Assembly: GCA_902806325.1 (NCBI GenBank) | Contig: CADCWE010000067.1 | Location: 1 to 36,427 of the forward strand | Length of the DNA: 36,427 nt | DNA from: an uncultured Thermomicrobiales bacterium | GTDB taxonomy: Bacteria; Chloroflexota; Chloroflexia; Thermomicrobiales; UBA6265 | Direction: 5' to 3' | Made by a program: the position numbers and the translations under genes | Shown here: positions 28,295-32,798 of the stretch, piece after piece | Position numbering within the stretch: the first letter of the stretch is position 1 | Layout: every line of letters starts with the position of its first letter | The notes under the pieces: model-generated | Told to the model about the DNA's origin: nothing | What the model saw: the letters and a program-made list of their open reading frames with translations, nothing else | The model's database searches: none

Positions 28295-29154
28295 GAGCGT
28301 GTCATGAACTCGGGCCGGGTCGTAAACTCACGAAATGAGCACCACCCGCAAAGCCTACCCGAGCGACGCCACCGACGAGGAGTGGGCGTTCGTCGCCCCG
28401 TACCTGACGCCGATGACCCCGGACGCCCCGCAGCGGCGCCACGACCTGCGCGAGGTCTACAACGCCCTGCGGTGGATCGTGCGCACCGGCTCGCCGTGGC
28501 GCTACCTCCCCGGCGACCTGCCGCCGTGGGCGGCCGTCCACCAGCAGGCCCAGCGCCGGATCGCGGCCGGCGTCTTCGAGGAGATGGTGCACGACCTGCG
28601 GGCGCTGCTGCGGGCGGCGGCGGGGCGCGATCCCGACCCGACGGCGGTGGTCCTCGACGCGCGCACGGTGCGGGGCACGCCGGAGAGCGGCCACCGGGCC
28701 GGCTACGACGGGCACAAGAAGACCAAGGGCAGCAAGGTCCACGCCGCGGTCGACACGCTCGGGCACCTGCTGGGCCTGGCGGTGACGCCGGCGAACGCGC
28801 AGGAGCGCGCGCAGGTGGGCGAGCTGGCCGACGCGGTCCAGGAGGCCACCGGCACCAACGTCGAGGTGGCGTTCGTCGACCAGGGCTACACCGGCGAGGA
28901 CCCCGCCGAGGAGGCCGAAGCGCGAGGCATCGAGTTGGCCGTGGTCCGGCTGCCGGAGGCGAAGAAGGGCTTCGTGCTGCTGCCCCGCCGCTGGGTGGTC
29001 GAGCGCTCCTTCGCCTGGGCGGCGCGGTTCCGCCGTCTGGCGAAGGACTACGAACGGCTGCCGGAGACCGTCGCCGGCCTGCACTTCGTCGCCTTCGCCT
29101 GCCTCATGCTTCACAAGATGGTCCTCCTGCCAACCGGAAGTCCATGACACGCTC
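28295..29154 (+). mobile_element. IS5-family insertion sequence (860 bp, complete)
   Basis: Terminal inverted repeats GAGCGTGTCATG (28295-28306 and reverse complement at 29143-29154), extending to 15 of 16 matches with an internal mismatch. Flanked by TA direct repeats (28293-28294 and 29155-29156), the target duplication typical of several IS5-family groups such as IS427. Encodes a single intact transposase. Everything needed for movement seems present, so it may be recent. Confidence 0.9.
28335..29147 (+). CDS. IS5-family DDE transposase
   Basis: 270 residues in one frame, no programmed frameshift needed. N-terminal DUF4096-like domain [17 protein letters not shown] and [20 protein letters not shown], then the DDE catalytic core: first Asp in [10 protein letters not shown], second Asp in [11 protein letters not shown], and the Y-(2)R-(3)E-(6)K-type region [20 protein letters not shown] carrying the catalytic Glu and Lys. 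It occupies nearly the whole element and ends 7 bp before the right end, inside the terminal repeat region. Acts on its own ends (GAGCGTGTCATG). Confidence 0.95.
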
Positions 29155-29897: not shown

Positions 29898-30260
29898 GAT
29901 CGCGCGTCGGCAACCTCGGCCTCATGCCGGATCCCGTGCGACGCACGAACAGGCGGCGATGGTCGGCCGTCGTCGGTGGAGGCGCCGTCTTACGGTACGG
30001 TGGTGACGATGGCCATCACCGGATCCGGCCGGTTCCATTAAAATTCCAAACACCGGAGAGGATCCACAGCGGCGACCGTGGGACGAAGGGGGTTGATCGT
30101 TCGTCGTTCAACGCCCCTCACGCCGACCGATCGTCCATGCCTTGGTTCAATAGTCCGACTTAAGGATGACGACAACCCGGACAAACCCGATAGAGTGGAA
30201 TCGCGGGGACCGAGGGAGTTCCCGCGATCACCGCACGCCAAAATTGGGAAGGAAGTTGTC
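29898..30260 (+). other. Leader region of the SpaA-domain surface protein
   Basis: No gene supported in these 363 bp. Bases 30035-30050 (CATTAAAATTCC) and 30140-30200 are AT-richer than the surroundings. TAAAAT (30039-30044) could be a -10 box but lacks a good -35. GGGAAGGAAG at 30246-30255 is the ribosome-binding site of the next gene. Confidence 0.35.
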
Positions 30261-32798
30261 ATGCGACGATCATCGTCACGAGTCCGGCTACTCGCCATGC
30301 TCGGTCTCGCGTTCGGACTGCTGGCGGGGCTGGCCCCGGGTGCGGACGCGGGCTTCAGTCCGAACACCTTTACGGTGGTAAAAACCAACTCCGACGGGTC
30401 CGACCCGGCGGGCGCGGGTTTCACCCTCTACGCCGCCGTCGATAACGGCTCCGGCACCTTGATCTGCGACAAGTCGACCGTCATCGCGGCCGAACAGATT
30501 GTGGAAAGCAATGGAACCAACGGCAGTGCGGTCCTTAGCAGTCCGTTGATCTCGGATTTCAGCTTCTATTGCCTCTCCGAGACGACGATCCCGGAGATAC
30601 CCGAATTCGTGGTCACCCCGCCCGCTGATCGGATCGTCGAAAGCACCGGCGTGAGCACCCTGGTGATCGTGGAAAACACGGTGACCCCCGAGGCGACCTC
30701 GGGCACGATCACCGTCACCAAGACCAACGACGACGGCACCGAGCCGGTCGGGGCGGCATTTGAGGTTTACGAGGCCGGTGGTCCGCTCGACGCCCCCTGC
30801 AACGAGTTCGGCGCCCTGGTTGAAGGCCCGATCACCGCCACCGGGAGTGGCGATGGCACCGCCACCGCCACCGCGACCTTCACCTCGGCCAGCCTGATCG
30901 TCGGCAACACCTACTGCGTCGATGAGTCCACGGTGCCGTTTACCTTTGTCCAAGACGTCCCGGTGGTGACCGTAACCCTGGCGGCCGGGGACAACCTGGT
31001 GTCCTTCGAAAATAGGCTGTCGGGCGGCTACCTCGCGGTCTTCAAGTCCAATTCCGACCTCAGCAACCCGGCCGGGGCAGCCTTCACCCTCTACAGCACC
31101 ACCCCGGACGGCCAGGGCGGGTTCATCTGCAACACCGGTGACCCGATTTCGAACGAGCAAGGCTTCACCAACAACAACGGCCAACTTGGTCTCGCCCAAT
31201 TCGTCGGCACGGCGCTGACCGAGGGCGCCACCATCTGCGTCGTTGAGACGACCACCCTGCCCGGCTACACGCCGGAATTCCCGCAGCGCTTCGCGACCAT
31301 CGAAGGTGGGCGGGGTAGGGTAGACATCCTGAACGTCCGCGACAGCACCATCACCGTTTCCAAGACGTTTACCGGCGGTAACCCAGGCCCGGCCGGCTTC
31401 CGGGTGCTGGATGCCACCTGCACCACCGTGGTGCTGCCCGAGCAGACCACCGACCCGAGCACCGGCAACGCCACCACCTTCAACGATCCCGCCGTGCTGA
31501 CCGCCGGCACGGAGTACTGCGTCGAGGAATCGAGCGTCACCCCCGGCTACACCGCCGATGACGCCCAGCAGTCGGTGACTCTGGCTCCTGGCGACAACGC
31601 CCTCACCTTCGACAACTCCGCGATCGCGGGCACCATCACGGTCTTCAAGGGCAACTCCGACCTTTCCGATCCGGCCGGTGCGGGCTTCACCATCGTCCCC
31701 GGGGGCGATGATGGCCAGGGCGGCTTCACCTGCGACCTGACCACGGTGATTTTGCCGGAGCAGACCGTTATCAGCGATGGCACCCTCGGCACCACCGTCT
31801 TCACCGATGTCGCCTTGACCGAGGGCACCTCGTTTTGCGCCGTCGAGACCACCGGCGTGCCCGGCTACACCGCGTTCCGGTCAGATACGCTGGTGACGAT
31901 CGTGAACGGGTCCGCCGAGGCCTACTTCACGAACGTCCTCAACACCACCATCACCGTCACCAAGACCAACGACGACGGCACCGAGCCGGTCGGGGCGGCC
32001 TTCACGGTCTACGAAGACGGCGACGGCACCGTCGAGTGCGAGGAACTCGGCCCCGTGGTCGAAGGCCCGATCGTCGCCGTTGGCGACGGCTCCGGCTTCG
32101 GTCCCGCCACCGCGGTCTTCACCTCGACCGACCTGGTCGTCGGCGACTTTTACTGCATCGCGGAGACGACGGTGCCGAACGGCTACTCGGCGGACTCGCG
32201 GGTGCGGTTCTTGGACCTGGACGACGGCGACAACGAACTGTTCTTCACCAACACCGCGCTCCCGACCGCAACGAACACCCCAACCCGGACCCCCACCAAG
32301 ACCGCGACCGCGATCACCACCGGCACGGTCGCCACAAGCACCGAGACCCCGACCGCCGCGAGCACCGCTTCCGCGACCACCACCGGCACGGTCGCCACGA
32401 GCACCGCGACCGCGACCGCGACCGCGACCGCGACCGCGACCGGCACGGTCGCCACGAGCACCGCGACTCCCACCGCCACCGGCACGGTCGCCACGAGCAC
32501 CGAGATCCCGGTCCCCACCAGCACGCTGGCGCCGGACACCGAGACCCCGGCCGCCACCGAGACCGAGGACCCGGCCGCGGAGACCCCGGTCGCCACGAGT
32601 ACGGTGGCCCCGACCACGGCACCGGCGGCCCCGACCACGGCGCCGGTCACCCAGTTGCCGGCCACCGGTGCCGGCGCCCAAGGCGCGGCAAGCGTCTCCG
32701 TGGTTTGGACGATGGCGGCGGCGCTGGCGCTGTTCGGCCTCGGAGGCGTGGGCTACGGTCTGCGCCGCCGGGTCACGCCGGCCCGCGCCCGCCGCTAG
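30261..32798 (+). CDS. LPXTG-anchored surface protein with six SpaA/Cna-B-like domains
   Basis: 845 residues. Signal peptide ~1-29 (LAMLGLAFGLLAGLAPGADA). Six repeats of ~100 residues start near 31, 146, 256, 361, 456 and 561; each opens with (T)ITV(T/F)K(T/G)N(S/D)D, contains two Cys (for example GFTCDLTT and GTSFCAVETT) and a late E-(T/E)-(T/S) after the second Cys. The first-strand Lys and the Glu of VETT are placed as for intramolecular isopeptide bonds known in SpaA/Cna-B folds. A Thr/Pro/Ala stalk follows (~667-795: TNTPTRTPTKTAT, TTGTVATST four times). The end is a sortase-type sorting signal: LPATG (799-803), a TM helix (SVVWTMAAALALFGLGG) and RRR tail. No sortase gene lies in the window. 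Likely a wall-attached fibre or adhesin. Confidence 0.85.
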   Translation: MRRSSSRVRLLAMLGLAFGLLAGLAPGADAGFSPNTFTVVKTNSDGSDPAGAGFTLYAAVDNGSGTLICDKSTVIAAEQIVESNGTNGSAVLSSPLISDFSFYCLSETTIPEIPEFVVTPPADRIVESTGVSTLVIVENTVTPEATSGTITVTKTNDDGTEPVGAAFEVYEAGGPLDAPCNEFGALVEGPITATGSGDGTATATATFTSASLIVGNTYCVDESTVPFTFVQDVPVVTVTLAAGDNLVSFENRLSGGYLAVFKSNSDLSNPAGAAFTLYSTTPDGQGGFICNTGDPISNEQGFTNNNGQLGLAQFVGTALTEGATICVVETTTLPGYTPEFPQRFATIEGGRGRVDILNVRDSTITVSKTFTGGNPGPAGFRVLDATCTTVVLPEQTTDPSTGNATTFNDPAVLTAGTEYCVEESSVTPGYTADDAQQSVTLAPGDNALTFDNSAIAGTITVFKGNSDLSDPAGAGFTIVPGGDDGQGGFTCDLTTVILPEQTVISDGTLGTTVFTDVALTEGTSFCAVETTGVPGYTAFRSDTLVTIVNGSAEAYFTNVLNTTITVTKTNDDGTEPVGAAFTVYEDGDGTVECEELGPVVEGPIVAVGDGSGFGPATAVFTSTDLVVGDFYCIAETTVPNGYSADSRVRFLDLDDGDNELFFTNTALPTATNTPTRTPTKTATAITTGTVATSTETPTAASTASATTTGTVATSTATATATATATATGTVATSTATPTATGTVATSTEIPVPTSTLAPDTETPAATETEDPAAETPVATSTVAPTTAPAAPTTAPVTQLPATGAGAQGAASVSVVWTMAAALALFGLGGVGYGLRRRVTPARARR
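32406..32441 (+). repeat. Hexanucleotide repeat (GCGACC)x6 within the surface-protein stalk
   Basis: Six perfect copies of GCGACC encode (Ala-Thr)6. Because the unit is 6 nt, length changes would alter stalk length without shifting the frame. Nearby, the ~24-nt unit for TGTVATST occurs four times (about 32320-32510). Confidence 0.85.

Follow-up and report, generated by a model that had tools for sequence, protein, structure and literature searches.

The double clamp of an isopeptide bond and a disulphide within one CnaB-type domain is already known from actinobacterial pili, at positions that match those described below. SpaA of C. diphtheriae and FimP of A. oris both contain the two bonds; in the C-domain of FimP, the isopeptide bond links K363 to D487 with E452 as the catalytic residue, the disulphide links C385 to C449, and the C-domain disulphide lies at similar positions in SpaA and FimP (PMC3485203). 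In actinobacteria, pilin disulphides are made by MdbA, with VKOR as its partner in A. oris, and C. diphtheriae is without VKOR (PMC9974433). Moreover, a survey of 2025 reported disulphides in 42.7% of the isopeptide domains of Chloroflexota and in 41.3% of those of Actinomycetota (PMC12617251). A dedicated study of sortases in Chloroflexota was not found in the literature searched.

Here we describe an 845-aa protein which, with a probability that we put at about 80%, is secreted, anchored by sortase and raised from the cell as a surface stalk of one chain that probably acts as an adhesin or adhesin-like spacer. It overturns nothing, the double clamp being known.

Results

The window (the whole stretch of DNA that was analysed, 36,427 nucleotides) corresponds to contig 67 in a draft genome of 4.17 Mb and 93.6% completeness. 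The gene begins with ATG at 30261, its stop codon ends at 32798, and its features are as follows:

30246 to 30255, plus strand: putative ribosome-binding site, purine-rich, GGGAAGGAAG (sequence)
30261 to 32798, plus strand: whole gene of the 845-aa surface protein (ORF, translation)
30261 to 30353, plus strand: signal peptide MRRSSSRVRLLAMLGLAFGLLAGLAPGADAG, aa 1-31, with an inferred cleavage site (sequence)
30363 to 30701, plus strand: CnaB domain D1 with K41, C69, C104, E107 and N139 (alignment; model mean pLDDT 78)
30702 to 31025, plus strand: CnaB domain D2 with K154, C180, C219, E222 and N251 (alignment)
31026 to 31343, plus strand: CnaB domain D3 with K262, C290, C326, E329 and N358 (alignment)
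31344 to 31628, plus strand: CnaB domain D4 with K368, C387, C420, E423 and N452 (alignment)
31629 to 31943, plus strand: CnaB domain D5 with K463, C491, C526, E529 and N558 (alignment)
31944 to 32267, plus strand: CnaB domain D6 with K568, C593, C632, E635 and N664 (Pfam SpaA; AlphaFold pLDDT 90.6; PDB match 7woi)
32286 to 32654, plus strand: Thr/Ala/Pro-rich low-complexity stalk, aa 676-798 (123 aa; sequence)
32655 to 32669, plus strand: LPATG sorting motif, aa 799-803 (sequence)
32688 to 32762, plus strand: C-terminal hydrophobic membrane segment, aa 810-834 (sequence; aligns with three further sorting signals of the genome)
32763 to 32795, plus strand: basic tail RRRVTPARARR (sequence)

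The six tandem SpaA/CnaB domains occupy aa 35-675 and are each 95-113 aa long, their starts being set 6 residues ahead of K41, K154, K262, K368, K463 and K568. An IS4/5-type transposase (28335-29147 of the window, plus strand) precedes the gene by about 1.1 kb; the other annotated neighbours are an alpha/beta hydrolase, an ABC transporter, a Uma2-like protein and an FAD/Fe-S oxidase.

The SpaA/CnaB fold with complete Lys-Glu-Asn triads is supported by several lines of evidence. The Pfam SpaA model (PF17802) matched the whole protein in four stretches (E 2.3e-17, 63.4 bits, cut-off 23.1), and D6 alone scored 28.6 bits, again above the cut-off, so a new domain family was rejected. Pairwise identity among the six domains is 26-54%, and their alignment has 11 invariant columns that include the Lys, both Cys, the Glu and the Asn; thus the six SpaA/Cna-B-like domains proposed in the first-pass annotation, each with a Lys, a Glu and two Cys, are borne out in 6/6 cases. 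The isopeptide triad (strand-A Lys, E-box Glu and last-strand Asn) is complete in every domain. What had been called a late Glu is indeed conserved and is more exactly placed within an E-box of the type E-[ST]-[ST]-x(2)-P-G-Y. The D6 model, for which the six aligned domains served as input, has seven strands at a pLDDT of 90.6; K7 lies on the first of them, a middle strand carries both C71 and E74, and N103 is on the last. D1, the most divergent domain, gave a weaker model (mean pLDDT 78) with a weak C-terminal end. Searching the PDB with the single protein sequence returned chance matches only. Better results came from the domain profile and from a fold search, in which D6 gave seven PDB matches at E <= 0.001, from six proteins, namely Spa2 (the best, 7woi), the TIE protein of B. 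anthracis (two chains), GBS52, BcpA, FimP and a Lactobacillus CnaB2 domain, all of them surface proteins of sortase-bearing Gram-positive bacteria.

The protein contains 12 Cys, exactly two per domain, and all of them fall in two invariant alignment columns, the second three residues before the Glu in 6/6 domains. For 12 Cys placed at random in 641 residues, the probability that all would fall in two aligned columns is about 10^-21, a figure which, since the domains share ancestry, expresses conservation at low identity; chance placement of the pairs was rejected on these invariant columns at 26-54% identity. There are eight Lys in all: the six of strand A plus K71 and K680. In the profile alignment, Spa2 YCLYETKAPSGY (YCLYET) and the C. 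diphtheriae pilin 3hr6 FCLVETATASGY (FCLVET) have the same Cys at three residues before the Glu. Judging from these residues, each of the six domains appears to be locked by an isopeptide bond and a disulphide. The extra disulphide had been described as rarely seen, which does not hold: both bonds occur in FimP and in C. diphtheriae SpaA, in FimP at the same site, and the survey figure of 42.7% for Chloroflexota (PMC12617251) likewise shows that the feature is not rare.

The layout of a sortase substrate is complete in the 845-aa protein, with signal peptide, LPXTG motif, hydrophobic segment and basic tail, and the LPATG, membrane helix and RRR ending that had been read at its C-terminus is confirmed, with the motif at 32655-32669. 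As had been stated, no sortase is found among the annotated neighbours in the window. The genome has two (PF04203, above cut-off), so the absence of a sortase, which had been named as grounds for abandoning this reading, does not apply:

L003, 2474-3163, minus strand: sortase 1, 229 aa
L004, 9054-10070, minus strand: sortase 2, 338 aa, with a C-terminal SH3 domain

For the two enzymes the class F NCBIfam model is by far the best match, though as nearest model only, since the score (105 bits) lies under the curated cut-off of 166; with the class C model, whose cut-off is 160, they reached 18 and 28 bits. Relatives of sortase 1 are found in many Thermomicrobiales MAGs, at up to 73% identity, and in Actinomycetota at 30-39%. 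These nearest relatives support the placement of the genome in Chloroflexota, Thermomicrobiales, in agreement with the phylum first proposed.

Sorting signals were searched for with a profile obtained by aligning four signals of the genome itself; Pfam Gram_pos_anchor was of no use for locating them here, the C-terminus of the 845-aa protein itself scoring 10.4 against a cut-off of 20. The profile found ten signals, that is nine besides this protein, seven of the nine being LPATG or LPNTG, and comparable signals occur also in relatives:

LPATG: the 845-aa protein and a protein on contig C98
LPNTG, six signals: contig C238 twice, C114, C198, C72 and C124
Other signals: MPNTG (C10) and PSNTG (C113)

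With its two class F-like enzymes and some ten proteins that carry a sorting signal, the genome offers a clean example of a Chloroflexota sortase system. Two adjacent LPNTG proteins (L029, 4517-8076, minus strand) have Cys-rich domains of the form CPxxYxGxDYFxDC, a recurrent surface-domain type that is present too in C114, C198 and C72. Among the LPNTG proteins at L154, L151, L152 and L156, several have repeats of a TSP3-like calcium-binding type (DTDGDGL), the Pfam TSP3_bac match having been run for L151 alone.

No whole-protein relative was found in the genome contigs searched or in viral contigs. With the domain profile, two of 60 relatives (G005 and G019) passed 1e-5, both weakly and with another architecture; compared with these 60, the six-domain form seems confined to the genome studied here. 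The genome itself holds a paralogue:

L051, 6151-8688, minus strand: paralogue on contig C98

It has two related domains with the Cys pair, Glu and Asn, a similar stalk, LPATG and a sorting signal that is 63% identical. It differs in that one of its two domains is without the isopeptide Lys, although the Cys pair, Glu and Asn are retained there, and in that the remainder consists of other domain types. Four long SpaA-domain proteins (contigs C162, C30, C269 and C43) have another Cys pair, which starts in strand B (GACF), the next Cys usually following after 11-24 residues. Counted roughly, with a simple regular expression, they contain 32 such sites, and a Lys was seen in the strand-A stretch at 8/32; 3/32 were without a second Cys in range, at least one of these lying upstream of the gene start. 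This pattern suggests that the disulphide outlasts the isopeptide bond in SpaA-domain siblings.

SpaA-domain proteins of up to 2577 aa and without LPXTG were noted at L025 (4009-11739, minus strand), L026, L027 and L028; they have the GACF...C pair and mostly no isopeptide Lys.

Discussion

Our results favor a wall-anchored stalk made of one chain. The 845-aa protein would be exported by Sec, and its six CnaB domains would then fold, the Lys-Asn isopeptide bond forming autocatalytically with the help of the E-box Glu and a disulphide tying the strand that bears the Glu to the stretch following strand B in each domain. A class F-like sortase would cut LPAT|G and join the Thr to the cell wall, and the Thr/Ala/Pro stalk would raise a stiff six-domain rod off the surface. 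The gene, its domains and conserved residues, the D6 fold, the sorting signal and the sortases and other substrates of the genome are directly supported by the analysis; we infer that both bonds form, that the protein is wall-anchored and exposed at the surface and that it serves in adhesion. Since no ligand-binding domain is recognisable in the 845-aa protein, the adhesin role is drawn by analogy; adhesion would be the likeliest role. In conjunction with the sequence evidence, the first-pass annotation is partly supported: it was right on the fold, the anchoring and the phylum, and wrong on the rarity of the extra disulphide.

The protein could also be the shaft subunit of a sortase-polymerised pilus, with copies joined head to tail and the polymer anchored to the wall. 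Indeed, the best fold match (Spa2) is a shaft pilin, the LPXTG major pilin model NF033902 gives a weak match, and an E-box and LPXTG are both present. The NF033902 score is however 43.9 bits for a cut-off of 95; the protein has no YPK/WPK/xPK pilin motif, and apart from the triad residues its only Lys are K71 and K680, the latter in the stalk; both sortases of the genome are nearest to class F, with none like class C; and the neighbours in the window are not pilus genes. Pilin identity was rejected for the lack of a pilin motif, of a class C-like sortase and of a pilus cluster, and we consider polymerisation very unlikely. The fibre first proposed stands as a single extended chain, and nothing was found that points toward sortase-polymerised pili.

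Similarly improbable is that the Cys pairs form no intradomain disulphide and either stay reduced or cross-link neighbouring chains. The argument for it comes from the folding machinery. Neither DsbB, VKOR nor Thioredoxin_4 family members were found in the 93.6%-complete draft genome, so the predicted disulphides are without an obvious catalyst; nor was a system of the actinobacterial type (an MdbA-like exported thioredoxin with a VKOR or DsbB partner) found in this draft. The only DSBA match in the genome is FrnE-like, has no signal peptide and contains an in-frame TGA. Against this, the Cys position equals that of the proven FimP disulphide, there are exactly two invariant Cys per domain, the 2025 survey (PMC12617251) predicts disulphides for 42.7% of the isopeptide domains in Chloroflexota, and in an aerobe oxidation might proceed without an enzyme. 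Given that C. diphtheriae is without VKOR and that about 6% of the genome is missing, the lack of a known partner is not decisive.

The FrnE-like DSBA-family frame (L157, G000:C206, minus strand) has its TGA at 1942-1944 (VFFDYG-TGA-PYVWGAAVWL), at the usual position of the active-site Cys in such proteins. Downstream of the TGA is a hairpin with a GGTCTG loop that resembles a bacterial SECIS element, and the protein is, by its sequence, a candidate selenocysteine protein.

The weakest alternative, which we regard as the least probable, is a membrane-tethered or S-layer-like coat protein that sortase does not cut and whose LPATG is incidental: little work has been done on the envelope of these bacteria, LPXTG is missing from other SpaA-domain proteins that the genome encodes and the Gram_pos_anchor score is under its cut-off, but the same genome has two sortases and, like its relatives, a family of C-termini of the form LP[AN]TG-A-G-helix-RR.

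Considering the siblings, a doubtful though broader proposal is that in this lineage CnaB domains might have come to be held mainly by the disulphide, with the isopeptide bond as a dispensable second clamp, in a cell without a recognisable Dsb or VKOR oxidase. If true, this would imply an exported thiol oxidase of a new kind or uncatalysed oxidation. For the single-chain stalk itself, six double-clamped domains in series could be used to ask how isopeptide bond and disulphide share load.

Compared with the systems described, the closest is the C-terminal CnaB domain of A. oris FimP (3UXF), which like the domains of the 845-aa protein has the triad and a disulphide, with C449 three residues before E452, and FimP is an LPXTG protein as well. 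FimP differs in being a polymerised pilin of three domains with a pilin Lys, and its M-domain uses a catalytic Asp (PMC3485203); moreover, its disulphides are in the N- and C-domains only, whereas the 845-aa protein has the same Cys pair in all six CnaB domains. SpaA of C. diphtheriae (3HR6) and Spa2 of C. glutamicum (7WOI) were matched by the domain profile and have the same Cys-x-x-Glu in the E-box strand; unlike the stalk proposed here, they are shaft pilins of assembled pili, with fewer domains and from another phylum. The SpaA-type domains of Chloroflexota in the 2025 survey (PMC12617251), which gives statistics alone, belong to the same superfamily and phylum and have disulphides in 42.7% of cases.
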